Shown here: positions 2,479 to 63,816 of the stretch, in pieces
How positions within the stretch are numbered: the stretch's first letter is position 1
How the letters are laid out: the number at the start of each line of letters is the position of its first letter
Assembly (NCBI GenBank): GCA_016287075.1
Contig: JAEEVC010000006.1
Coordinates: 62,001 to 126,000, forward strand
Direction: 5' to 3'
Source: Bacteroidales bacterium
Lineage (GTDB): Bacteria > Bacteroidota > Bacteroidia > Bacteroidales > UBA932
Length of the DNA stretch: 64,000 nucleotides
Translations under genes and position numbers: made by a program
The notes under the pieces: model-generated
What the model saw: the letters and a program-made list of their open reading frames with translations, nothing else
Told to the model about the DNA's origin: nothing
The model's database searches: none

Positions 2479-3923
2479 GACTGGACCAGATCATACACGG
2501 AATCAGCTGCCTGGAGACGCAGGGAGACCTTTCCTGCGAAATCTCCGCGGTGACCAGCGACTCCCGGACCGTCATCCCCGGCGCCCTTTTCATCGCCGTC
2601 AAGGGATACGGCCGCGACGGACACGCCTATATCCCTTCCGCCATCCAGAAGGGAGCGGCCGCCGTCCTCTACGAGGAAGGCGCTGCGCCGGAAGGCGTCG
2701 CCTCCGTCCGCGTGGCGGACAGCCGGGTCGCCATCGCCCTCGCGGCCGACAATTTCTACGGACATCCGTCCCGCGACCTCACCCTCGTCGGCATTACCGG
2801 CACGAACGGGAAGACCACGACCGTCACCCTGCTCTACCACCTGTTCACCGGCCTGGGATACAACTGCGGCCTCCTCTCCACCATTGCCAACTATGTCGGC
2901 GAAGAACGTTTTGAGACCGACAACACCACCTCGGACCCCGTCACCATCAACCGGCTTCTCCGCCGGATGGTCGATGCGGGCTGCGAATACTGCTTCATGG
3001 AAGTAAGTTCCATCGGCGTGGACCAGGACCGGGTCACGGGCCTGCGTTTCAAGGCCGGGATCTTCTCCAACCTGACCCATGACCACCTGGACTATCACAA
3101 GACCTTTGCCGAATATCTCCGCTGCAAGAAGCGCTTCTTTGACTGTCTGCCCAAGGATGCCTTCGCCATTGTCAATACGGACGACCGCAACGGCCTGGTG
3201 ATGGTCCAGAACACGGTGGCCAAGGTCGTCACCTACTCCTGCCGGAGCCTCGCGGACCACAGCGCCCGCATCCTCGAGCAGGGTTTCGAGGGCATGCTCC
3301 TGAAAATCGACGGCCAGGAGGCCTGGACCCGCCTCGTCGGGGAACACAACGCCTACAATGTGCTGGCCATCTACACGACGGCGGTCTGCCTGGGTGCAGA
3401 CCCGACCGAAACGCTCGTCGCCATCAGCCGTCTCGCCGCCGCGCCGGGTCGTCTCGAGACCCTGCGCGGTCCGCGGGACCTTGCCGTCGTCATCGACTAC
3501 GCCCATACGCCCGACGCCCTGGAGAATGTCCTGAAGACCCTCCGCGACGTCGCCCCCGAGCGGCCGCTCATCTGCCTCTTCGGCTGCGGCGGCGACCGCG
3601 ACCGGACCAAGCGGCCGGAGATGGCGGAAATCGCCGAAAAGCGGGCCGACCGGCTCGTCATCACCTCCGACAATCCCCGGACCGAAGACCCGGAGGCCAT
3701 CATCGCGGAAATCCGGAAGGGCCTGTCCTTCAGCGGATCGGCGAAAGCGCTGGTCATCACGGACCGCCGCGAGGCCATCCGCACCGCCATCCTGACCGCT
3801 CCGGAACATGCAACCATCCTCCTCGCCGGCAAGGGACACGAGACCTACCAGGTCATCGGGACCGCCAAACTGCCGTTCGACGAGAAAGAAATCGTGACTG
3901 AAACCTTCAAGCTGCTTTCCTAA
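2475..3923 (+). CDS. murE: UDP-MurNAc-tripeptide synthetase MurE
   Basis: GITGTNGKTTT P-loop, DYAHTPDALENVL, TSDNPRTEDP; ATGA overlap with ftsI. Confidence 0.95.
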   Translation: MRLDQIIHGISCLETQGDLSCEISAVTSDSRTVIPGALFIAVKGYGRDGHAYIPSAIQKGAAAVLYEEGAAPEGVASVRVADSRVAIALAADNFYGHPSRDLTLVGITGTNGKTTTVTLLYHLFTGLGYNCGLLSTIANYVGEERFETDNTTSDPVTINRLLRRMVDAGCEYCFMEVSSIGVDQDRVTGLRFKAGIFSNLTHDHLDYHKTFAEYLRCKKRFFDCLPKDAFAIVNTDDRNGLVMVQNTVAKVVTYSCRSLADHSARILEQGFEGMLLKIDGQEAWTRLVGEHNAYNVLAIYTTAVCLGADPTETLVAISRLAAAPGRLETLRGPRDLAVVIDYAHTPDALENVLKTLRDVAPERPLICLFGCGGDRDRTKRPEMAEIAEKRADRLVITSDNPRTEDPEAIIAEIRKGLSFSGSAKALVITDRREAIRTAILTAPEHATILLAGKGHETYQVIGTAKLPFDEKEIVTETFKLLS

Positions 3924-30388: not shown

Positions 30389-32896
30389 ATGAAAAAGTCT
30401 TTCCTCTGCATCCTCGCGGCCCTCGCGGCCCTCACCGGCTGCCGGAAGGCGCCCGCAACCGACGCCCCCGCCGTATTCGTCTTTTCCTCAGAGGCTCCCG
30501 GGACCCGCACGGAGTGGGATGGCAGTACCATCCAGTGGTCCGAAGGCGATGCCATCAGCATGGCCTACACCATCAGCGGGGTCTGGCAGGGACCTTCCCT
30601 GCTGCCCTCCGCCCCCCTCGAGAAAAGCGTCCATGAGGCCCATTTCACCGTGCCGGTCGGCTTTGATTCCCCTGATGTGGGCGCCCATACCTTCTACACC
30701 GTCTATCCGGCCGCCGCATCGACGGATTTCGCGGATGCGCCGGAATACATGACCGCCATCCCGACCCGGCAGACCCCCGCGGCCGATTCCTACGACCCGG
30801 CAGCGGACCTGATGGTCGGCATCTCCGACACCTACCGCAGCCGGCCGGCCGGGACCATTCCCCTCCGCTGGACCCGCCTCGTGGCCCACGGCGACCTAAC
30901 CCTCAGCAACCTCGGCCTCTCCGCCGGAGAGAAAATCGCCTCCGTCACCCTGACCGCCCAGGACCGCGCGGAACTGACCGGCGACATCCTCGTGGACATC
31001 TCCACCGGGGAATGTGCGACCGCCGGTGTCAATACCGTCTTTCTCGACGGAAGCAACCTCTCCCCCGAGGCCGACGGCAGCCTCCACTGCTGGGTCAGCA
31101 TCTTCCCGGTGACCCTGACGGCGCTCGAGGTCCGGGTCGAGACCGATCTCGCGACCTACACCAAATCCTTCTCCGGCTTTTCCAAGACTTTCGTTGAAAA
31201 TGCCAGGAACATCCTCAGCATCAACATGAAAGACGCCACCGTCGTCCAGAAGGAGCAGCCCGGGACGGAGTATGTCCGCACCAGTTCCGACGCGGCCGAC
31301 TGGACCGGCGACTACCTCATTGTCTATACGGAAGGCAGCGTCGCGCTGAAGGCCGGGACCACCTCCGCCTCCAGCGGTACGGGTGAATCCGTGACCATCT
31401 CCAAGGGCGTCATCCCGGCGGCGGGCAACGAAGCCCTCAACATCCGGATCGAGAAGAGCGGAAACGCCTACACGATGAAGCAGGGCGACGTCTATCTCGG
31501 GCTCAACTCCTCTTCCAATGCGCTGCATTTCAGCGAGTCCGCCTCGGACGGCTACCTGTGGACCTTCGCGGTTTCCAACGGGGACATCCTGGTCAGAAAC
31601 ACGCAATATTCCACCCGCTTCCTCCAATGGAACAAGTCCGCCCGGATTTTCCGCTGCTATACCGGCAGCCAGGAGAATGTGCAGTTCTACAAACTTGACG
31701 GCAGCGCGGGCGGCCAGGGCGGCGATACGCCCGCCACGCCGACCGTGACGACCGGCTCCGCCTCGTCCGTCTCCCGCTCCGAGGCCACGCTCCATGCAAC
31801 CTACACGGGCGACGCCACTTACGGCGGCTTTGAATACGGTCTCTCGCCGGGCGCCCTCACCAGCACGGTCGAGTCCCAGTACGTCACCGGCAGCGCTTTC
31901 TCCGCCCTCCTCGACAATCTGGTATCCGGGACCACCTATTATTATCGCGCGTACATCGCCATACTGGAAGGTTCCCAGTATCAGTACTATTACGGCAGTG
32001 TCCAGCAGTTCACGACCCCTTCCGACGAGCAGGTCGGCCCTTCGGACAACCAGCCCGGCTGGGCGGAGGTTCCGCTGATGGAAATCGGGAAAGACGGGAA
32101 TTACATGGTCAACACCAGCGACCCGAGCCAGTACTTCGCCATCCACCTGTGCACCGGCGGCGAAAAGGGTCCCGGCGGCAAGACGGCCCGCAACTACACG
32201 GTCTGCTACAGCGCCGAGCATCACTGCCCGGTCTGGGTCGCCGCCCCGCGCCATGCCATGTATGTCGGCAGCGCGGGACGGAATGATTCCTACCGCCAGG
32301 ATCCGAACATCCCCTCCGGCATCCAGTACACTTCCAAGTCCACGGGCGGCGGCTGCAACAAGGGCCATATGCTCGGTTCCGCGGAACGAACCTCCTCCAA
32401 GAGCACCAACCGCGACGTGTTCTACTACCCGAACATCGCCCCGCAGCTCTCCTCCGGATTCAACACGGGCGGCGGCGGATGGAACATCCTGGAAGACTGG
32501 GTGGACACGCAGGTCTGCGCCGACACCCTCTACGAGGTCATCGGCTGCTATTTCGAGGCCTTCTCGCAGCGGATCGGCAGCACGACCTATTCCACCAGCC
32601 CGTCAACCATCAGCTTCGGCGGGCGCAACGACGTCTCCATGCCGACCATGTTCTATTACGTCCTCCTCCGGACCAAATCGGGCAATAGCCACAAGTCCGT
32701 CAAGGACTGCTCGTCCAGCGAACTGAAGTGCGCCGCCTTCGTCCGCGCCCACACCAACAGCATGAAGGGCGTCCAGGTCTCCAGCGCGGAAATGATGTCC
32801 GTCTCCGACCTCGAACAGCTCGTCGGCGTCACCTTCTTCCCCAACGTCCCGAACGCTCCGAAGTCCAGCTTCAACGCCTCCGACTGGGGACTTTGA
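30389..32896 (+). CDS. Secreted lipoprotein: fimbrillin-like N-terminus, FN3-like domain, C-terminal DNA/RNA non-specific endonuclease
   Basis: Lipobox ALTGCRK; NKGHMLGSAER...FYYPNIAPQ...N.GGGGWNILE resembles the NUC motif. Confidence 0.82.
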   Translation: MKKSFLCILAALAALTGCRKAPATDAPAVFVFSSEAPGTRTEWDGSTIQWSEGDAISMAYTISGVWQGPSLLPSAPLEKSVHEAHFTVPVGFDSPDVGAHTFYTVYPAAASTDFADAPEYMTAIPTRQTPAADSYDPAADLMVGISDTYRSRPAGTIPLRWTRLVAHGDLTLSNLGLSAGEKIASVTLTAQDRAELTGDILVDISTGECATAGVNTVFLDGSNLSPEADGSLHCWVSIFPVTLTALEVRVETDLATYTKSFSGFSKTFVENARNILSINMKDATVVQKEQPGTEYVRTSSDAADWTGDYLIVYTEGSVALKAGTTSASSGTGESVTISKGVIPAAGNEALNIRIEKSGNAYTMKQGDVYLGLNSSSNALHFSESASDGYLWTFAVSNGDILVRNTQYSTRFLQWNKSARIFRCYTGSQENVQFYKLDGSAGGQGGDTPATPTVTTGSASSVSRSEATLHATYTGDATYGGFEYGLSPGALTSTVESQYVTGSAFSALLDNLVSGTTYYYRAYIAILEGSQYQYYYGSVQQFTTPSDEQVGPSDNQPGWAEVPLMEIGKDGNYMVNTSDPSQYFAIHLCTGGEKGPGGKTARNYTVCYSAEHHCPVWVAAPRHAMYVGSAGRNDSYRQDPNIPSGIQYTSKSTGGGCNKGHMLGSAERTSSKSTNRDVFYYPNIAPQLSSGFNTGGGGWNILEDWVDTQVCADTLYEVIGCYFEAFSQRIGSTTYSTSPSTISFGGRNDVSMPTMFYYVLLRTKSGNSHKSVKDCSSSELKCAAFVRAHTNSMKGVQVSSAEMMSVSDLEQLVGVTFFPNVPNAPKSSFNASDWGL

Positions 32897-32908
32897 CCAC
32901 CGCCCGGC

Positions 32909-33064
32909 GGCACGTTGCGCGCCGGCATGTCGTGCGCCGACACGTTGCACGCCGGCATGTCGCCTGCCAGCATGTCGTTTAGTGGCACGTTGCTTAGTGG
33001 CACGTGGCACGTTGCACGCCGGCATGTCGCCTGCCAGCATGTCGCTTAGTGGCACGTGGCACGC
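32909..33064. repeat. Tandem 15-bp repeat array (consensus RGCAYGTYGC + variable 5 nt), ~9 full and 2-3 truncated units
   Basis: Manual alignment: GGCACGTTGCGCGCC/GGCATGTCGTGCGCC/GACACGTTGCACGCC/GGCATGTCGCCTGCC/AGCATGTCGTTTAGT/GGCACGTTGCTTAGT... Confidence 0.85.
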
Positions 33065-33066
33065 CC

Positions 33067-33370
33067 CGTAAGCAAAAAAGGCCAGTTCTGCTTACCAAAC
33101 GGCCATAAGAAGCGACCCGTATAAGCAAAAAAGGCCAGCCATGCTTACCAAACGGCCATAAGAAGCGACCCGTAAGCAAAAAAAGGCCAGTTTTGCTCAC
33201 CAAACGGCCATAGGAGGCGACCCGTAAGCAAAATGGGCGGTTTTGCTTACCAAGCGGCCACAGGATGCGCCCCGTAAGCAAAAAAGGGCAGTTTTGCTCA
33301 CCAAACGGCCATAGGAGGCGCCCCGTAAGCAAAAACACGGGAATGTGCTCACCGATTCAGCAAAAGGGCG
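33067..33370. repeat. Tandem ~51-bp palindrome-containing repeat array (REP-like), ~5.5 units
   Basis: CGTAAGC recurs at 33067, 33118 (variant), 33171, 33223, 33273, 33324 (spacing 51/53/52/50/51); unit 4 has the perfect 10-bp inverted repeat GTAAGCAAAA-N7-TTTTGCTTAC. Confidence 0.9.
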
Positions 33371-33460
33371 TTTATCCATCATATAAAACGTAAATTATAT
33401 GGCTGAAACCATTTATCTCTACCGATAAAACCATCGTTTTGTAACGTTTCAGCATTAGCT

Positions 33461-34429
33461 TTGCCACAAATAAACAATGCGGAAAAAGTGGAAACGGTAT
33501 TCATAAACGAACGGCAGAAGGAATGGATGCAGGAGCAGCTGTTCCGGCAAGAGGGCCCTTTCTATCACCTCCATACCGAACCGGTACAAGACCGGAACAT
33601 ACTCGATTGGGACACGGAGCGGATCGCGGTCATGAACTTCCTCGCTCTGACCGTACAGCGCTCACCTGTGGATCTTCTTGCTTATGCACTGATGAACAAT
33701 CATTTCCATCTCATTCTCAAGGGGTCGGAAGAAGATTGCATTTCCACTTTCGAGGCCTGGAAGGTCCGGATGGAGCGATACTTTTCCCGGCACGGGAAAA
33801 AGGGAATCCTCGCCCCGGTCAAGGCGGGACTGACACCCATACTCAACCTCAAGCAATTCCGCGATGAAATCGCATATGTTATCCGGAATGCTTACGTGGT
33901 CCGGCCCGATGTCAATCCGCTCGGCGATCCGTGGTGCAGCGGGTATCTGTATTTCAACAAAATGCTCCCGCTCGGCGTCTTTCCGCCCGCAGACCAGCTT
34001 AGTTTCAGGGAACGGAGAGCGCTGACCTGTTCCCGTGATGTGCAGGTTCCCGCGGGACTGACGGTCCATCAGGGGATGTTGCGGCCGGAAAGTTTTGTCA
34101 ACTACGCCTTGGTAGAGGCGCTGTTCCCCAACGCCAGGAAGTTTACGGTCTGGGTATTCAAAAACATCGAGGCCCAGATTGAAACGGCCCAACGCCTCGG
34201 CGAGCGTCCGGTTCTGACCGACGAGGACATCCTCAAGATTTCCCTGAAAATCTGCCGGGAGCGTTATCAAACCTCCTCTGTCGACCGCTTGACGGAAGAC
34301 CGAAAGAAAGAGCTTGCCGTCATCCTGAAAAACGAGTATTATGCCTCCAACGGCCAACTTGCCCGTTTCGCCCACCTGCCGCCTGCCGTCATTTCCCGCT
34401 TATTCCCATTGGCCGACAAAAATCGATGA
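33461..34429 (+). mobile_element. RAYT/IS200-like (Y1 HUH) transposase gene
   Basis: MNNHFHLIL HUH motif, candidate catalytic Tyr in YVIRNAYV; flanked both sides by the same 51-bp repeat. Start uncertain (TTG 33461 or ATG 33527). Confidence 0.8.
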
Positions 34430-34465
34430 AATGCCAATGCCCACGCGCCTGATGACAATCAGGTC

Positions 34466-34602
34466 CGTAAGCAAAAAAGGCCAGCCATGCTCACCAAACG
34501 GCCATAAGAAGCGCCCCGTAAGCAAAAAAGGCCAGTTCCGCTCACGAACTGACCTTTTTCTTATCTTGTGTGCAAAAAAGGAGGTTTTCGCTTACAGGGC
34601 GG
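34466..34602. repeat. 3' segment of the 51-bp REP-like array
   Basis: CGTAAGCAAAAAAGGCCAG at 34466 and 34517 (51 nt apart), then degenerate GTGCAAAA...TTTTCGCTTAC. Confidence 0.85.
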
Positions 34603-35763
34603 CTACCAGAAGGAGGTGTTCGTCGCTTCGGCCGCTGACTGCTTGTCGGCGGGGACATTGGCGAAGAGGTCAAAGCCGGTGATGGCCTCGATGTCGTCGA
34701 TGGTGGCCGACTGCTCGTACTCCTCACCCGACCTGGGCTCATGCAGGAAGAGGAAGGCCGCGCCCTTGGCTGCAGTCATCTCTCCCGAGGCATTGAACGT
34801 ACACTTCATCAGGCACTTATAGTACCGCGTCGGGATCGGGACGCCGCTGACGGTATTGTAACCGCTGTCGAAGATCGGGCCCGTGACGACATAGAGGGTA
34901 TCCCGGCCGGTGGTTCTGTCCGCCAGGTTCTGCACCTTGCTTTCCAAGGAATTCCACTTGCCGCTGTTGAGCGCGCTCGCCTGTGGCGTCATGTTGGAAT
35001 AGTAGAAGGTCTGCTGGTTCTGGGGATCCGTTGTCTGGCGGTCGTTCGACGCCACCTGATGGCCCCGGGTATAGCCGCTGACCGAACCGGGCTGATAGTT
35101 TGACGGGACTGCGGGATCGTTGGTGAACGCGTTGTTGTGCCGGCCGACGTGATTGTTCACCCAGCAGTCGTTGTTCGCCGCATAGGCGACCCAGAGGGCG
35201 CACTGTTTGTCGTAGTCGAACAGCAGCGAATAATTCCGCAGGGTGCGCGAGTCATAGGAGAAGGTATGGGTGACAATCCGTCTGCGGCTGCTCGAAGGAT
35301 TGTAAATGAAAGCACGTGTAGCACCGTACGTTTCATTCACAGTCGAGTGGAACGCCTTCTGGACGTTCGTCAGGCTGACATCCGTCGCCGGAATCTCATA
35401 ATTGATGAGCCAGGAGGCGGCATAGGCTTCCGGATTGCCGCCCGAGCCTCCGGACGCCGATGCGGTCGTAAACTGACGCACAGTCCCTTCCACAGTGACA
35501 TATTTGCCGGCATCGGCATCCCATACGTCCAGCAAGGCCTTATAATAATAGGTCGTATTCTCCGACAGGCCGGACAGCGCAGCGGAGAAACTGCCGGACG
35601 ACGACGTGATGAGCGTCGTATTGTCACTGGCAGTCTGCGTCAGCGCGCTGACGGACGTCCCGTAGACGAATCGCGGACTGTGCGGCGCATACGGCGCCGT
35701 CGGAACGCGGACGAAGGCGGCGTTCAGGGTTGCCCCTGCAACGCCGACCCCCGTCGCCGCCAA
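34603..35763 (-). CDS. DNA/RNA non-specific endonuclease domain ORF, in frame with the upstream lipoprotein through one TGA
   Basis: YTRGHQVASNDR...FYYSNMTPQASALNSGKWNSLE NUC motif; no signal peptide of its own; TTG start. Confidence 0.8.
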   Translation of the reverse strand: MAATGVGVAGATLNAAFVRVPTAPYAPHSPRFVYGTSVSALTQTASDNTTLITSSSGSFSAALSGLSENTTYYYKALLDVWDADAGKYVTVEGTVRQFTTASASGGSGGNPEAYAASWLINYEIPATDVSLTNVQKAFHSTVNETYGATRAFIYNPSSSRRRIVTHTFSYDSRTLRNYSLLFDYDKQCALWVAYAANNDCWVNNHVGRHNNAFTNDPAVPSNYQPGSVSGYTRGHQVASNDRQTTDPQNQQTFYYSNMTPQASALNSGKWNSLESKVQNLADRTTGRDTLYVVTGPIFDSGYNTVSGVPIPTRYYKCLMKCTFNASGEMTAAKGAAFLFLHEPRSGEEYEQSATIDDIEAITGFDLFANVPADKQSAAEATNTSFW

Positions 35764-35811
35764 TGTCGTGACTGTGGGCTCTTCACCCCCGGCGCCTCCG
35801 CCGGACGGCAG

Positions 35812-38800
35812 TCAATCCCAGGTGATTTCGACCGAATCCAGATACGCGGCGCCGTCCTTGGAGCGGATGCCGACGTACTGATAGGAACCGGAAACCGTAA
35901 CCGTACCGGTCGTTCCGTCAGACATCTTCACCGAACCGAGCAGGGTCCCGGCGTTCTCGCCAAAGAGGTCCGCGGCACTGGTGTAAGCAGAATTGCTCCC
36001 ATACACCTGGATCTCACGTGCCGAATTCGTATTTTCGTTCAAGACAATCTTGACGGACTTGACATAGCCGCCGGACTTCGTAGAGACGATTCCGGAGTCA
36101 TTGTTCTTGGAACGAATCTGAATTGCTTCATAGTTCTTCGCCGTATTGCCGGCATAAACCGCACCGGACAGTTTGGAAATGCCCGTCGTCGCAACATAAG
36201 TGGTGCTCCCGGTCGCATCAAAATCCGCCGCCGTCAGCAGGTCGATGACTTCATTGCCAGTAGGGGCAGCGGTAACCGTGATGTTGCAGGTGGCCTGAGC
36301 AGCCGTAAATGCACCCTCGACCGCGGCTACGGAAGCCGTGATGACTGCCGTGCCGGCAGCAACTGCCGTAATAAGACCGGCAGCGTTAACGGTAGCAACA
36401 CCCGTATCGCTAGAGGTATATGTCACCGTAGCAGTAGAGTTCGTCGTGGCAGGATTGCTGAAAGTGTCGCCAACTGTCAGCGATTTAGACGTGCCATTCG
36501 TAAAGGTAACAGTTGACGGAACGGTCGGATCGACCTCTCCACCAAATTCATACAGGTCGATATCGAAATACTCGGTACCATTGATGTTGCTGTCCTTGTA
36601 TCCGCCGAAAGTACTCGCATATGATCCACTCCCCAGCCTGAAGGCCAAGAGACGGTCCGAAACTGCCTTGGAAGCAAAACGGAAGGTACCCGTAGATGCT
36701 CCGGACACAGGTGTAACGACCCATGCGTCCGAAGCGGCAGAAACTGTCGAAAGTCCTGTACCTGAAGCACCGTTATACTCAAGATAAGTATTATTGTAGC
36801 TGATCAGGTAATTGCCATCGCTGACAGAAATCGTAACAGCCAGGGCATTTGTCGTCGTAGTAGAAGCGATTACACCAGAAGAAATATTCACGGCCTGCGT
36901 ACTCAAACGATTGTTCGTGACAGCGGCAGGAACCATAGCCTCAGCCTTCGTACCGCCGACAATGATGTACTTCTTGCCGCTGGTGATGGAACTCACCTTG
37001 ACATAGTTGTCGCCGCTCGGGGGCTCCGGGATGGTGTAAGCCGCCTCGGCGACCGCACTGTCGTTCATCCCCTCCTTCACGGCGATGGCCTTGATGGTCA
37101 TCGCGGCATTGACGGTCACGGAAGTACCTGTCGCAGAGGATGCTGTCGGGGTAGAGCCATCCGTCGTGTAGTGGATGGTCGCACCGGCAGTCGCACAGGA
37201 AATCGTCACGGTCGTACCGACAGCCACCTCGCCCGCAGCCGGGCTGAAGGTCGGGGTCGCGACCGTCTCGACGACGGGCGTGTCGCCGCCGCCGTTGCCG
37301 GACTTCACGAAGAAGGCGAAGGTCTGGTCCTTGATGTTGGCGTTGATGCTAGTATAGCTGCGCCAATCCTTGGCGGTACCCTGCTCACTGTAAATACCCA
37401 CATACCGGGCCTGCCCATCGTTGTACAGGTAGTTGGAATTCAAACTGAATGTCTTTTTATCACCGGTACCTACACGGAGGCCGTTGTTGTTGTTCGTGCA
37501 GTAGAGCCACTTGCTGCTATCCCCATTCGGATAGAAGGTGTACGAGCCGCTGGCGGCCGTCAGTTTCCACTGCAGGTTCGCGGCAGGTGCAGCCGTCAGG
37601 GACTTGCCGTCGGAGGCCACGGAGACGGAGACGGCGGCCGGAGCGCCGGAAGTGCCGTTGTCATTGGCCATCGCAAAGTCGTTGCCGTTGTTGCCGACGA
37701 TGACGAAGACATCGGAGGACGTGATGGCGGTAATGTCCTTCTTGAACCAGCCGTTTTCTCCCACGGGCGGCTCGGGCGGGGTGTCACCGCCGTCGATGTA
37801 CTCGTACAGCGCAGGGTAGATATTGGAGTCATTGACAGTCTCATACACGGCGAAGTAGGAACGGTTCACATTATACACGACGTGCTTGCCCTTGCCGGCA
37901 TTGACAACATCCACCGTACCGTCATCTTTGGCCGTAACCGTCCATACGTAGGACTCCTGTGCCGAGTCATACACATTGATGGAGTTGTACGTACCCGTCA
38001 TGGCCCAGTAACGGGCGTCAGGCTGGGCGATCGAGTAGCCGCCGGTAACGGCCGTGAAGGTCAGTTCCAGATCCGCGTGGCGCGTATCGATCACACCGTC
38101 CGTCTCAGAGACCTTCGTCGCTGCCGGGTAACCGTATGTACTGCCGGAGGCAATCGGGGTCATGGCCTGCACTTTCCCGTCCACCAGAGCGGCGAGGATG
38201 TATTTCTTGCCCGCGGTGACGGAAGTCACCTTGCGATAGACGGATTCGCCGGCGGGGACGAACGCTTCCTGGGTGATGACGAACTCGTACTCGCCGAGGT
38301 CGCTTTCGATGTTGATGGTGTAGGTGACGGGCTCTTCCGTCTCATTGGCCGGGAAGGTCACTTCGACGGATGCGGAGGAATTGCCCTCCTCCTCGCTGAA
38401 TTCGACATCATCGTCGCTGTAGATCACCCAGTCCACATTGGAGATTACGTTGATCACCGCGGACGTCGCCGAGGCGGGGACGGTCAGGAGACCGCTCTCG
38501 TTCGCACCTTCCAGCGTTGCCTGGAAGATGGGTTCATCCGTACCGCTGCCGACGAGCTTGTACAGGGCGATGCCCGTACCGGTCGTGGAACCCGAAGTAT
38601 AGCAGTTGAAGATCGGGTTGCCGTTGTTCGGGTTGAAACGCATCTGGCCGCGGCTGACGCCCGCCGCATTGACGTTCGCTTCCCCGTCGGAGATGGAAAC
38701 CGTAAAGTTTGTGTTGGCGCCGGTCTCAGCCACTGTCGTCAGCTGGTAGCTGTTGGAGCCCGTCGCAGCCAGGTAACCGGCCGTGCCCGCCTTGAAGGCG

Positions 38801-39885
38801 ACCGTACCGCCGGTCTCGGCTTCGATGGTCAGGATCTGGACGGATTCGGAAGGATCGGTGATCGCATCGTCCACGACCGCCACGGCCGCCGCGGCGCGGT
38901 TATTGGAATTCTGGGTCGTGCCGATGGCATAATCACCGGCCGCATTGGCGATGATGACCTGAGAGTCGGGCGTCAGTTCGGCCGGATCGGTCACCAATTC
39001 ATAGACCTGGGATTCCTTGTGGACCGCACCGGTCATGTCCACCGTGAACTTCGCAATCCGGCCCGCCTGGAACTTGCGGTTGGCAGGCAGGGTGATCGTC
39101 TTCTCGTAAGGACCGTCGGCCGTGTACACCGTGACCTTGAGTTCGGTGCCGGAGAGGTCGGCCGGTGCGCAGGCGAACCAGATATCCTCAAGGGAAGCGG
39201 TCTCGAGGTTGAGCGTGTTGGATGCGGACAGGGCCACCAGTTCACCGGCCTCATGCTCTTCCGTATCCGCGACATAATAGTAGAAGCGGCCGGAAATCGG
39301 CTGGGCCGCCGTCAGGCTGACGCCCGTCACGGCGGCGCCGGCGAGGTCGAGGCCCGTGAGGGTCATGCGGCCGTATGCGGTCACGTGGGAGAAATTGACG
39401 GTGATAACCTCATCCAGGGACGTGCAGGCCGCGGAAACACCGGCAAGGACCTGGGCGGCCTCGTCGGGCGTGCCGGCGGAAGGGACCTGGTCGGAGGGAA
39501 TCTGGAGCCCCCAGTCCATGTATTTGCTGCTGATGGAGAAATAGGCCGTCGAAGGGCTCAGCGCATAGAAGGTATACGGGGCCTCGGCATTCTCCGTGTT
39601 GACGCTGGCTTCGAACTCGGCCGTCGCGCCGTTCGGGGTGACGGTCGCATCCACGCCGGAGGCCATGTTCAGGGAGACCTTCACTTTCGTATCGTTCTCC
39701 GTCCAGAGGACAGGATACTTCCCCGTCGCATCCGGGGTCGAGAAAGCGGTACGGGTCTCGACGGGACCCGCGAGGAAACGGACAGTGCGGCCTTCGGTGC
39801 CGTTGACGTCACCTTCCCGCTGGCAGGAAGCGAACGCGAGCGCCGCGGCGACGGTCACAAGGATGGATTTGAAAACCTTTTTCAT
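35812..39885 (-). CDS. Large lipoprotein: fimbrillin-like N-terminus, BACON, CHB_HEX_C-like and Ig-like domains
   Basis: Lipobox AFASCQR; VETRTAF...VLWTENDTKVKV; BACON-like SNVDWVIYSDDD...FVITQEAF; ATPTFSPAAGEVAVGTTVTISC; Ig2-like VTYTSSDTGVATVNAAG. Confidence 0.8.
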   Translation of the reverse strand: MKKVFKSILVTVAAALAFASCQREGDVNGTEGRTVRFLAGPVETRTAFSTPDATGKYPVLWTENDTKVKVSLNMASGVDATVTPNGATAEFEASVNTENAEAPYTFYALSPSTAYFSISSKYMDWGLQIPSDQVPSAGTPDEAAQVLAGVSAACTSLDEVITVNFSHVTAYGRMTLTGLDLAGAAVTGVSLTAAQPISGRFYYYVADTEEHEAGELVALSASNTLNLETASLEDIWFACAPADLSGTELKVTVYTADGPYEKTITLPANRKFQAGRIAKFTVDMTGAVHKESQVYELVTDPAELTPDSQVIIANAAGDYAIGTTQNSNNRAAAAVAVVDDAITDPSESVQILTIEAETGGTVAFKAGTAGYLAATGSNSYQLTTVAETGANTNFTVSISDGEANVNAAGVSRGQMRFNPNNGNPIFNCYTSGSTTGTGIALYKLVGSGTDEPIFQATLEGANESGLLTVPASATSAVINVISNVDWVIYSDDDVEFSEEEGNSSASVEVTFPANETEEPVTYTINIESDLGEYEFVITQEAFVPAGESVYRKVTSVTAGKKYILAALVDGKVQAMTPIASGSTYGYPAATKVSETDGVIDTRHADLELTFTAVTGGYSIAQPDARYWAMTGTYNSINVYDSAQESYVWTVTAKDDGTVDVVNAGKGKHVVYNVNRSYFAVYETVNDSNIYPALYEYIDGGDTPPEPPVGENGWFKKDITAITSSDVFVIVGNNGNDFAMANDNGTSGAPAAVSVSVASDGKSLTAAPAANLQWKLTAASGSYTFYPNGDSSKWLYCTNNNNGLRVGTGDKKTFSLNSNYLYNDGQARYVGIYSEQGTAKDWRSYTSINANIKDQTFAFFVKSGNGGGDTPVVETVATPTFSPAAGEVAVGTTVTISCATAGATIHYTTDGSTPTASSATGTSVTVNAAMTIKAIAVKEGMNDSAVAEAAYTIPEPPSGDNYVKVSSITSGKKYIIVGGTKAEAMVPAAVTNNRLSTQAVNISSGVIASTTTTNALAVTISVSDGNYLISYNNTYLEYNGASGTGLSTVSAASDAWVVTPVSGASTGTFRFASKAVSDRLLAFRLGSGSYASTFGGYKDSNINGTEYFDIDLYEFGGEVDPTVPSTVTFTNGTSKSLTVGDTFSNPATTNSTATVTYTSSDTGVATVNAAGLITAVAAGTAVITASVAAVEGAFTAAQATCNITVTAAPTGNEVIDLLTAADFDATGSTTYVATTGISKLSGAVYAGNTAKNYEAIQIRSKNNDSGIVSTKSGGYVKSVKIVLNENTNSAREIQVYGSNSAYTSAADLFGENAGTLLGSVKMSDGTTGTVTVSGSYQYVGIRSKDGAAYLDSVEITWD

Positions 39886-61089: not shown

Positions 61090-63816
61090 TTACGCGTTCT
61101 GCTTGATCTGCGCCTGGGCCGCGGCGAGGCGGGCGATCGGGACGCGGAACGGGGAGCAGGAGACGTAGTCGATGCCGATGGTGTTGAAGAACTCGATGGA
61201 GCGCGGGTCGCCGCCGTGCTCACCGCAGATGCCGCACATCAGGTTGCCGCGGCAGGAGCGGCCCTTGTCCACACCGATCTTGACGAGCTGGCCGACGGCC
61301 TTGACATCGATGGTCTGGAACGGGTCGGAATCGAGGATCTTGTTGCCGAGGTAATCGCCCATGAAGGTACCGATGTCGTCACGGGAGAAACCGAAAGTCA
61401 TCTGGGTAAGGTCGTTGGTGCCGAAGCTGAAGAACTCGGCGGCGCGGGCCATGCGGTCGGCGGTCAGCGCGGCGCGCGGGATCTCGATCATCGTACCGAA
61501 CTGGTAATCGATCTGCTGGGCATAGTGGACCTCGACCTCGGCCTTGATGCGGTCGCAGATCGCACGCTGGAAGCTGAGCTCGCGGGCGGAGATCGTGACC
61601 GGGATCATGATTTCCGGGTGCGGGTGCAGGCCTTCCTTCTGGAGTTCGGCGGTCGCGGAGAAGATGGCGCGGTACTGGGTCTCGGCGATGAGCGGGAAGC
61701 TCACGTGGAGACGGACGCCGCGGTGGCCCATCATCGGGTTGACCTCGTGGAGGGATTCGCCGCGCTTCTCGATCTCAGCGACGGAAACGCCGAGTTCACG
61801 GGCGAGTTCTTCCTTCTTGTCCTCACCCTTCGGCACGAACTCGTGGAGCGGCGGGTCGAGGAGGCGGAAGACGACGGGCTTGCCGTCCATCACGCGCAGG
61901 GTCTCCTTGACGGCGGTCTTCATGAAGGGCTCGAGTTCGGCGAGGGCGGACTTGCGCTCGGCGTCGGTGTCGCAGAGGATCATCTTGCGGAGCTTGCCCA
62001 GCGGAATCTCGCTGTTCTGGCCATAGAACATGTGCTCGATGCGGAAGAGGCCGATGCCCTGGGCGCCGAACTTGAGGGCGCGGGCGGCATCCTCCGGGGT
62101 GTCGGCGTTCGTGCGGACGCCGAGCTTGCGGAACTTGTCGCAGAGGGCCATGAACTTGCCGAAGAGCGGGTTCTCGGAAGCGTCCATCGTGTCGATGGCG
62201 GCGCCATAGACGAGACCCTTGGAGCCATTGAGGCTCAGCCAGTCACCTTCCTTGCAGACCTTGTCGCTGCCGGCGAAGGAGACGGTCCTGTCCTTGAAGT
62301 TGATCTTCATCGCGTCGCAGCCGACGATGCAGCACTTGCCCCAGCCGCGGGCCACGAGGGCCGCGTGGGAGGTCATGCCGCCGCGCTCGGTCAGGATACC
62401 GACGGAAGCGTGCATGCCGTCGATGTCCTCCGGGGAGGTCTCCTCGCGGAGCAGGATGCACTTCTTGCCGGCCTTGGCATACTCGATGGCGTCCTCGGAA
62501 GTGAAGACGATCTGGCCGACGGCGCCGCCCGGGGAGGCCGGGAGACCCTGGGCCAGGACCTCGGCCTTTTTCTCGGAAGCCGGGTCGAGGATCGGGTGGA
62601 GGACTTCGTCAAGCTGGGCGGGAGAGACGCGCATCACGGCGGTCTTCTCGTCGATCAGCCCTTCTTCGACCATATCGACGGCCATCTGCAGGGCGGCGAG
62701 GCCGGTGCGCTTGCCGATACGGCACTGGAGCATCCACAGCTTGCCTTCCTGGATGGTGAATTCGATGTCCTGCATGTCCTGGAAGTGCTTTTCCAGGTGG
62801 AGACGGATGTCGTCCAGCTCCTTGTAGACCTCCGGCATGGCGGTCTCGAGGGAGGCGAGGTGCTTGTTCTTCTCGCTCTTGGTGGCCTCGTTCAGCGGGT
62901 TCGGGGTGCGGATGCCGGCGACGACGTCCTCGCCCTGGGCGTTGATGAGCCACTCGCCGTAGAACTTGTTGTCACCGTTGGCCGGGTTGCGGGAGAAGGC
63001 GACGCCCGTGGCGGACGTTTCACCCATGTTGCCGAAGACCATGGACTGGACATTGACGGCCGTGCCCCAGTCATCCGGAATATGCTCGATCTGGCGGTAG
63101 CGGATGGCGCGCTTGCCGTTCCAGGACTTGAAGACGCCGCCGATGGAGCCCCAGAGCTGGGCCTGCGCATCGTCCGGGAATTCCACGCCGAGGACTTCCT
63201 TGATGCGGACCTTGAAGGCCTCCGCGAGGTCCTTCAGCTCGTCCGCGGTCAGCTCGGTGTCGCTCTTGTAGCCCTTCGCGTCCTTGACGTCCTGCATCAT
63301 GCGGTCCAGCTGCTGGCGGATGCCCTGGCCGTCGGCCGGCTCGATGCCCTCGGCCTTCTCCATGACGACGTCGGAGTACATCATGATCAGGCGGCGGTAG
63401 GCGTCATAGACGAAACGCGGGTTCTGCGTCTTGGCGATGAGGCCCGGGATGGTCTTGGAGCAGAGGCCGATGTTCAGGATCGTGTCCATCATGCCCGGCA
63501 TGGAACTGCGGGCGCCGGAGCGGCAGCTCACCAGAAGCGGGTCGTTCGGGTCGCCGAACTTCTTGCCCATGATCTGCTCCGTGGCCTTGAGGGCTTCCGC
63601 CACATCCTTGCGGAGTTCCGGGGTATAGCCGCCGCCGAGCAGGTAGTACTCGGTGCAGCATTCCGTCGTGATCGTAAAGCCGGCCGGGACAGGCATCCCG
63701 AGCAAATTCATCTCGGCGAGGTTGGCACCCTTGCCGCCGAGGAGTTCGCGCATCTTACCGTCGCCTTCGGCATGCTTTCCGCCAAAGCGATAGACTCTCT
63801 TTTTGATTTCTTTCAT
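61090..63816 (-). CDS. ppdK: Pyruvate, phosphate dikinase
   Basis: GGKGANLAEM; GGMTSHAALVARGWGKCCIVG; FSFGTNDLTQMTFGFSRDD; GICGEHGG. Confidence 0.96.
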   Translation of the reverse strand: MKEIKKRVYRFGGKHAEGDGKMRELLGGKGANLAEMNLLGMPVPAGFTITTECCTEYYLLGGGYTPELRKDVAEALKATEQIMGKKFGDPNDPLLVSCRSGARSSMPGMMDTILNIGLCSKTIPGLIAKTQNPRFVYDAYRRLIMMYSDVVMEKAEGIEPADGQGIRQQLDRMMQDVKDAKGYKSDTELTADELKDLAEAFKVRIKEVLGVEFPDDAQAQLWGSIGGVFKSWNGKRAIRYRQIEHIPDDWGTAVNVQSMVFGNMGETSATGVAFSRNPANGDNKFYGEWLINAQGEDVVAGIRTPNPLNEATKSEKNKHLASLETAMPEVYKELDDIRLHLEKHFQDMQDIEFTIQEGKLWMLQCRIGKRTGLAALQMAVDMVEEGLIDEKTAVMRVSPAQLDEVLHPILDPASEKKAEVLAQGLPASPGGAVGQIVFTSEDAIEYAKAGKKCILLREETSPEDIDGMHASVGILTERGGMTSHAALVARGWGKCCIVGCDAMKINFKDRTVSFAGSDKVCKEGDWLSLNGSKGLVYGAAIDTMDASENPLFGKFMALCDKFRKLGVRTNADTPEDAARALKFGAQGIGLFRIEHMFYGQNSEIPLGKLRKMILCDTDAERKSALAELEPFMKTAVKETLRVMDGKPVVFRLLDPPLHEFVPKGEDKKEELARELGVSVAEIEKRGESLHEVNPMMGHRGVRLHVSFPLIAETQYRAIFSATAELQKEGLHPHPEIMIPVTISARELSFQRAICDRIKAEVEVHYAQQIDYQFGTMIEIPRAALTADRMARAAEFFSFGTNDLTQMTFGFSRDDIGTFMGDYLGNKILDSDPFQTIDVKAVGQLVKIGVDKGRSCRGNLMCGICGEHGGDPRSIEFFNTIGIDYVSCSPFRVPIARLAAAQAQIKQNA

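Follow-up and report, generated by a model that had tools for sequence, protein, structure and literature searches.

RAYTs are the textbook "domesticated transposases"; both the benefit that they bring to the host and the way in which they recognize their repeats are open. In the TnpA-REP/RAYT REPtrons of E. coli and Stenotrophomonas, one gene goes with each repeat type and the REPs typically number more than 100 dispersed copies (PMC2817692, PMC8266576), and in the Marinomonas REPtrons Ma and Mb the REPs cluster around the gene (Corneloup et al. 2021, PMC8266576). In the classification of TnpA-Y1 proteins by Quentin et al. (2018, PMC6006769), subclass 2.6 from Bacteroidetes has a median length of 179 aa and atypical flanking structures with copies elsewhere; subclass 2.1 combines a long protein and an HTH-like C-terminus, and no REPs were found for it. 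TIRtrons carry inverted repeats (Di Nocera et al. 2013, PMC3733652). Here, we describe a Bacteroidales gene that is best read, from comparison with its relatives, as a member of a large family of RAYT-like (Y1/HUH) single-strand nickases/ligases restricted to one genus. Dozens of sister genes with different repeats at the same 51-bp spacing suggest a fast-evolving enzyme-and-address system.

A RAYT-like gene between two arrays of a 51-bp unit

The gene lies in a window of 64,000 nucleotides (positions 62001–126000 of its contig) from a 2.87 Mb, 97.7% complete MAG (Table 1). A sequence-only reading of this window had proposed that same-orientation units of ~51 bp bracket the gene, about 5.5 upstream and 2–3 downstream. 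The repeat finder counts six upstream and three downstream, the last degenerate, and the downstream copies resume the upstream consensus in the same orientation, as had also been proposed. TRF called a 51-bp unit in 5.3 copies at 33065–33335; the nine hairpin-bearing copies are in register, at spacings of 53, 52, 50, 51, and 51 bp upstream and then 51 and 50 bp downstream; and the upstream array has a tandem score of 45.5, where 500 shuffles reach at most 13. These results indicate that the bracketing array in the window is real.

Table 1 Features of the locus (positions in the window)
Feature	Position	Strand	Basis and remarks
Upstream array	33065..33352	+	six hairpin-bearing units; repeat finder, TRF
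Upstream units	33068–33095, 33120–33148, 33172–33200, 33224–33250, 33274–33301, 33325–33352	+	
Bacteroidales-type −7 promoter element TAGCTTTG	33456..33463	+	pattern match; putative function
Gene for RAYT-like Y1/HUH protein	33461..34429	+	intact ORF, 322 aa as listed; NHFH motif
Catalytic residues			HUH = H81/H83 (NHFH); catalytic Tyr = Y139 (YVIRNA)
Helical C-terminal domain (residues 196–322)	coding 34046..34426	+	AF2 secondary structure
Downstream array	34467..34595	+	three units, orientation as upstream; repeat finder
Downstream units	34467–34494, 34518–34545, 34568–34595	+	third degenerate
Intrinsic-terminator-like stem-loop, then ACCTTTTTCT	34533..34551	+	consensus match only

The −7 element TAGCTTTG lies between the upstream array and the gene and overlaps the TTG start at 33461; with the box at 33456–33463, translation more probably starts at the GTG at 33488. 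About 100 bp separate the upstream array from this promoter-like element, and the second downstream unit supplies the terminator-like stem-loop.

Another tandem array, unrelated to the first, occupies 32896–33060 and separates the 51-bp array from the upstream nuclease gene; its 15-bp unit is CGGCATGTCGCGCGC-like, with CACGTTGCACGCCGGCATGTCGCC motifs (TRF: 32908–32977). Convergent Endonuclease_NS genes, 30389–32896 (+) and 34603–35763 (−), flank the gene and its arrays by their 3′ ends, and both encode secreted DNA/RNA non-specific endonucleases. ORFs 35812–39885 and 34603–35763 (−) share one frame with a single TGA between them; joined across it, 34603–39885 gives one secreted protein of ~1760 aa with a C-terminal Endonuclease_NS domain. 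The TGA may reflect a pseudogene, readthrough, or a sequencing error.

Fold and catalytic residues of the protein

That the gene encodes a RAYT-like Y1/HUH protein had been read from its motifs and was borne out by structure prediction. For an AlphaFold2 model built from 83 homologues (mean pLDDT 95.8), Foldseek ranked first 4er8, a complex of the E. coli REP-associated tyrosine transposase (TnpA-REP) with a REP hairpin (E 1.4e-4, TM 0.62 by target length), followed by IS608/ISDra2 TnpA. H81, H83, Y139, and N143 are invariant in 103 of 103 homologues, and the catalytic Tyr motif (Y---N[P]) reads YVIRNA in the window protein and YVIRNP in most relatives. Pfam Y1_Tnp stayed sub-threshold for the window protein, at 12.1 bits against a cut-off of 23. 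NCBIfam REP_Tyr_transpos matched it with E 7e-6 and 25.9 bits, below the curated cut-off of 80, and matched 33 of 83 relatives at E ≤ 0.01 (best E 5e-7). On the strength of the fold match to TnpA-REP and the invariant catalytic residues, we assign the window protein to the TnpA-Y1 class 2/RAYT superfamily as a divergent member.

The C-terminal ~125 residues are helical in the AlphaFold2 model, with a probable helix-turn-helix at residues 297–314; this domain gave no significant fold or sequence match, its helix-turn-helix matches being weak and non-significant. The window protein had no match at E 0.1 to PADLOC defence models and no informative match in PHROGs, and an Rfam search gave no match.

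Each gene has its own repeat on both sides

Homologues occur in 124 of the 151 genomes of the same genus, commonly several in each; among 295 genomes of the order, none was found outside the genus at E ≤ 1e-15. The named relatives are all recorded as Bacteroidales/Bacteroidia MAGs, one of them labelled Fibrobacter, and many isolate names suggest ruminant gut; the genus may be Cryptobacteroides, a large genus in GTDB. Five members are encoded in the source genome itself (the window gene, L004, L005, L006, and L250), and the paralogues are only 24–35% identical. In 400 congeners, no close copy of the window gene or of its repeat was found, and the best gene reaches ~50% protein identity.

For each of 103 loci, the 500-bp upstream flank was aligned with the downstream flank, likewise 500 bp, of its own gene and with those of all other genes. 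A score of at least 40 was obtained for 60 of 103 matched flank pairs and for 74 of 10506 mismatched pairs (0.7%), percentages that come from related loci and are thus not independent trials. The flank repeats are therefore specific to a locus; they are mostly direct (60 loci direct against 18 inverted at ≥40), and ~40% of the 103 loci have no clear bracketing repeat at this threshold. Repeats resemble one another across loci only among close homologues, whose proteins are >65% identical: the share of locus pairs with similar repeats rises from 0.4% at 25–35% protein identity to 36% at 65–80% and 83% at 80–90%. Likewise, in a set of 75 named loci with longer flanks that overlaps the 103, of 72 arrays with a period of 49–53, 64 fall in the 59 kb that are no more than 400 bp from the gene and 8 in the other 280 kb. 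Downstream arrays begin a median of 12 nt past the stop codon, and upstream arrays end a median of 145 nt before the start of homology.

The sequence-only reading had left open whether the gene was inserted into the array or co-evolves with it. Co-evolution with a cognate repeat is what the 60 bracketed loci and the rise of repeat similarity with protein identity support; insertion is unlikely because genes across the whole genus are bracketed by arrays, and gene and arrays change jointly. The same reading had suggested searching the genome and its relatives for the unit. Searches of the source genome found the window unit at its own locus only; the relatives' genes carry 51-bp arrays of their own.

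Repeats also accompany further Y1 genes in the source genome. A 62–63-bp array with GTACCAGATG/CATCTAGTAC arms brackets the more distant member L250 (L250:1266–1433 and 3300–3549). The rule suggested by this array, that the period is a whole number of turns in all paralogues, was dropped, as the 30 relatives of L250 (L251–L280) mostly lack regular arrays and share no common period. Paralogue L006 has a 36-bp tandem array (GGCCCTTCCGGCCGCTCTCCGGT...) on its 3′ side (L006:1155–1393) and two GTTAGGGGTG palindromes on its 5′ side. The assembly breaks inside the 52-bp array of paralogue L004, leaving six units at the end of one contig (C43, L137) and three at the start of another (C22, L139), so the full array must exceed the part visible on either contig. 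A different Y1 gene lies between near-perfect palindromes of ~109 nt (L002:1172–1280 and 2322–2430), which read GTCGAATGGAA...TTCCATTCGAC with an inner hairpin CATGATTAGCCCTGTCGAA; this arrangement is TIRtron-like.

The unit spans five helical turns and carries covarying arms

An unrestricted period scan from 30 to 129 (threshold 18, shuffled maximum 11.5) returned a period of 50–52 bp in 80 of 97 periodic flanks and twice that, 101–103, in nine more. The period is fixed although the unit sequences are mostly unrelated between loci. Units extracted at periods 49–53 were then used for analyses of word enrichment, skeleton, and phasing. The 47 non-redundant units share a skeleton around the shorter-loop dyad, G-C-n-C-AAAA-nn-GGCC-nn-TTTT-G-n-G, and a second dyad half a period away is centred on AAA or TTT in 25 of 32. 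Pairing of the arms is limited to offsets 8–14 from the dyad, where 80–97% of positions are complementary against ~30–47% expected, with all four pair types; picking dyads by their best stem inflates this complementarity but is not the cause of the equal fixed offsets in all families. A unit thus consists of two covarying 7-bp inverted arms, half-sites standing 23 bp apart, around a fixed 16-bp AAAA..GGCC..TTTT core.

This anatomy only partly matches the hairpin first drawn for the window. Hairpin-bearing units are indeed present, but in the relatives the covarying arms are these 7-bp segments 8–14 nt from the dyad. The A-tract and T-tract described as a stem extension exist too, as a core feature of all families rather than a stem, since the central 16 nt are no more complementary than base composition gives. 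The absence of an obvious GTAG/GTGG foot was confirmed: there is none in the window unit, and neither word is among the enriched words of the 47 units, which are A-tracts and CGGCC.

AA/TT steps recur with a spacing of 10.2 bp, which corresponds to the unit's fifth harmonic (z = 15.4 relative to run-preserving shuffles). Raw arrays show autocorrelation peaks at 10, 20–21, 30–31, 40–41, and 51, where control sequence from the same loci is flat; in the window array itself, the phasing is visible but weak. From this phasing and autocorrelation, the unit is five helical turns long and its A/T tracts lie on the same side of the helix, which is a feature of duplex DNA. As single strands, the window units show no folding advantage over shuffles (z −0.9, −1.3, −1.9, −0.8, and +0.5), which argues against a classical REP-hairpin substrate; some other unit families fold better (z about −2.3 to −3.5). 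A test for a single-strand substrate by strand-asymmetric mismatches gave 21 G.T against 39 A.C, or 13 against 22 by loci (p = 0.18).

These properties bear on two explanations in which the enzyme has little part. Tandem arrays can expand enzyme-free, and another tandem repeat, the 15-bp array at 32908–32977, lies close by, so the 51-bp arrays might be passive satellite DNA that grew by slippage or recombination beside an HUH gene without a role. Slippage would not be expected to give a sequence-independent period, covarying arms, or helical phasing, and arrays of 49–53 bp are strongly enriched beside the gene and bracket it privately on both sides; we consider this reading largely refuted and leave it the slightest of chances. 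Enterobacterial BIMEs have been reported as sites for a host architectural protein or gyrase, and the arrays could likewise serve such a host factor, the RAYT merely spreading them. Phased A-tracts and an AAAA..GGCC..TTTT core common to all families while the arms differ would suit that idea. It is nevertheless very improbable: a single host factor would have no need of arms that are private to a locus and follow the protein, and the repeats are little dispersed.

Arrays change in copy number and genes are lost or replaced

We searched 26 unit families in their 22 genomes. Matches were to the cognate family and mostly at the cognate locus; families other than that of the window had 3–34 matches per genome in total and few orphan arrays. 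All copy numbers are lower bounds because MAG assemblies collapse tandem arrays. Two orphan arrays, L133 (4.9 copies) and L134 (5.3 copies), lie in the genome of L075, with no RAYT in the sequence examined there; at the L133 site of a related species, whose flanks are 88% identical, the array is about two units shorter (5 vs 3).

Close pairs mostly keep one common chromosomal site. The L059 family is found at differing sites, between mnmA and cdd in G218 and adjoining an ABC gene in G141, and the latter site is empty in G140, where the region is rearranged. In G148, a gene of this family has been lost, leaving one degenerate relic unit; G148 had been a candidate for a virgin empty site and was rejected as such. 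L026 and L068 have flanks that are ~94% identical around HUH genes of 75% nucleotide identity, and the units on both sides have coherently changed arms, AAGTG..CACTT in one and (A/C)TGTG..CACA(T/G) in the other. This is a concerted replacement of enzyme and address, and it looks like cassette exchange or a very rapid joint switch. L048 and L050 (87% protein identity) have upstream flanks that are homologous but inverted relative to the gene.

The different sites occupied by one family in different species (G218 and G141, with G140 empty), like the HUH fold, would fit an autonomous IS200/IS605-type insertion sequence whose ends are the arrays. We regard this as improbable, given that the source genome holds no identical copies but paralogues of 24–35% identity, that close relatives mostly share a chromosomal site, that no tnpB is found among the neighbours of the window gene, and that long arrays stand on both sides instead of one hairpin per end.

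A proposed nickase–array module

In our view, the locus is probably a fast-evolving HUH nickase–array module, in which the enzyme acts on its own array and probably maintains it. Each family member would sit between two arrays of its private binding or processing unit. The protein may recognize the 7-bp inverted arms of the cognate unit. It would probably do so as a dimer, and the target is probably curved duplex, given the five-turn spacing of the units and their in-phase A-tracts; the C-terminal domain perhaps mediates this likely duplex recognition. When units are exposed or extruded, for example at replication, the HUH/Tyr site would nick and rejoin one strand. Strand exchange at equivalent positions of adjacent units could then add or remove DNA in whole steps of ~51 bp, homogenize the two arrays that flank the gene, and now and then seed a small array elsewhere, so that enzyme and address would change together. 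The invariance of the catalytic residues, the private bracketing, the co-divergence of gene and repeat, and array change in steps of a unit agree with this account. Unit-wise change of the arrays could also come from enzyme-free recombination.

The main rival is that the arrays form a duplex binding platform, that is, an operator, a DNA-organizing site, or a partition-like site, for a domesticated, non-mobilizing RAYT in which cleavage is incidental. Phasing and half-site geometry would serve dimer binding and DNA bending, and several observations point this way: A-tracts phased over a period of five turns, a constant 16-bp core flanked by 7-bp half-sites, weak single-strand folding of the window units, the probable C-terminal helix-turn-helix, and repeat copies that are few and mostly local. 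Against it speaks above all the catalytic Tyr, which with the HUH motif is invariant in all 103 homologues, and therefore nicking appears to be under selection. Moreover, the orphan arrays and the difference of 5 vs 3 copies point to DNA rearrangement, and the upstream array is no ordinary operator because it stops ~100 bp ahead of the promoter-like element. We therefore judge pure binding to be rather unlikely, though it deserves to be weighed.

A bolder version of the nickase–array module, which we offer tentatively as possible rather than likely, is that these proteins form a new class of HUH enzyme that reads a double-stranded, intrinsically curved tandem array instead of a single-strand hairpin, the paralogues being mutually orthogonal modules. 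Each would have a private address, a 7-bp half-site repeated every five helical turns, and a switch of specificity would be a concerted change of gene and array.

The family offers dozens of natural enzyme/address pairs of one architecture and differing sequences, a data set for decoding HUH recognition that is also suited to testing whether arrays are kept by their own HUH enzymes. From phasing at 51 bp and five turns follows a clear physical prediction, a curved duplex bound on the same face, by which duplex and single-strand models can be told apart. Orthogonal pairs of HUH nickase and site could be useful as tools, too.

Comparison with known systems

The sequence-only reading had drawn a parallel to REP/RAYT systems. 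This stands insofar as a RAYT-like HUH protein is paired with a cognate repeat, but membership of the standard REP/RAYT systems is not supported: in its genome, the unit occurs at one locus only, related genes carry mostly unrelated repeats, orphans are few, and the window's hairpins are weak as single strands. A fixed 51-bp, helically phased array is not described in the open-licence literature that was searched for RAYT in Bacteroidetes, with tandem arrays, or in Cryptobacteroides.

With the REPtrons, the locus shares the HUH/Y1 fold and catalytic residues, a cognate palindromic repeat on the flanks of the gene, a single gene for each repeat type, and paralogues of low identity. It differs in having no GTAG foot, a tandem direct 51-bp array, a large 16-nt core, few and mostly local units, and a protein of ~310 aa with a helical C-terminal domain, present as ~5 paralogues per genome, each with its own repeat. 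In BIME/REPIN arrays, inverted elements likewise alternate in orientation with one shorter and one longer spacer; here, the 7-bp arms have no internal hairpin, the period is fixed at 51 bp, and the arrays are confined to the surroundings of the gene. IS200/IS605 elements share the HUH/Y1 catalytic core and differ by tnpB, identical copies, and one subterminal hairpin per end where this locus has arrays.

Subclass 2.6/RAYT group 5 (PMC6006769) comes from the same phylum and has atypical flanking secondary structures without GT[AG]G, but its HUH–Tyr distance is ~82 and its proteins are far shorter than the ~310 aa here, where that distance is 56; no 51-bp arrays are described for it in PMC6006769. 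Subclass 2.1/RAYT group 1 and TIRYT (PMC6006769, PMC3733652) are alike in length, HTH-like C-terminal extension, NH[YF]H motif, and an HUH–Tyr distance of ~58–67, and differ in having no REP-like repeats, or single long terminal inverted repeats, in place of direct tandem arrays. By sequence, the window family therefore appears nearer to 2.1 in length and HUH–Tyr distance and nearer to 2.6 in repeat association. Because the GTAG foot and genome-wide dispersal are missing, we do not file it as a REP/RAYT system by definition; it is REPtron-like and would work like one, and its nearest precedent for the locality of the repeats is, by analogy, the Marinomonas REPtrons.
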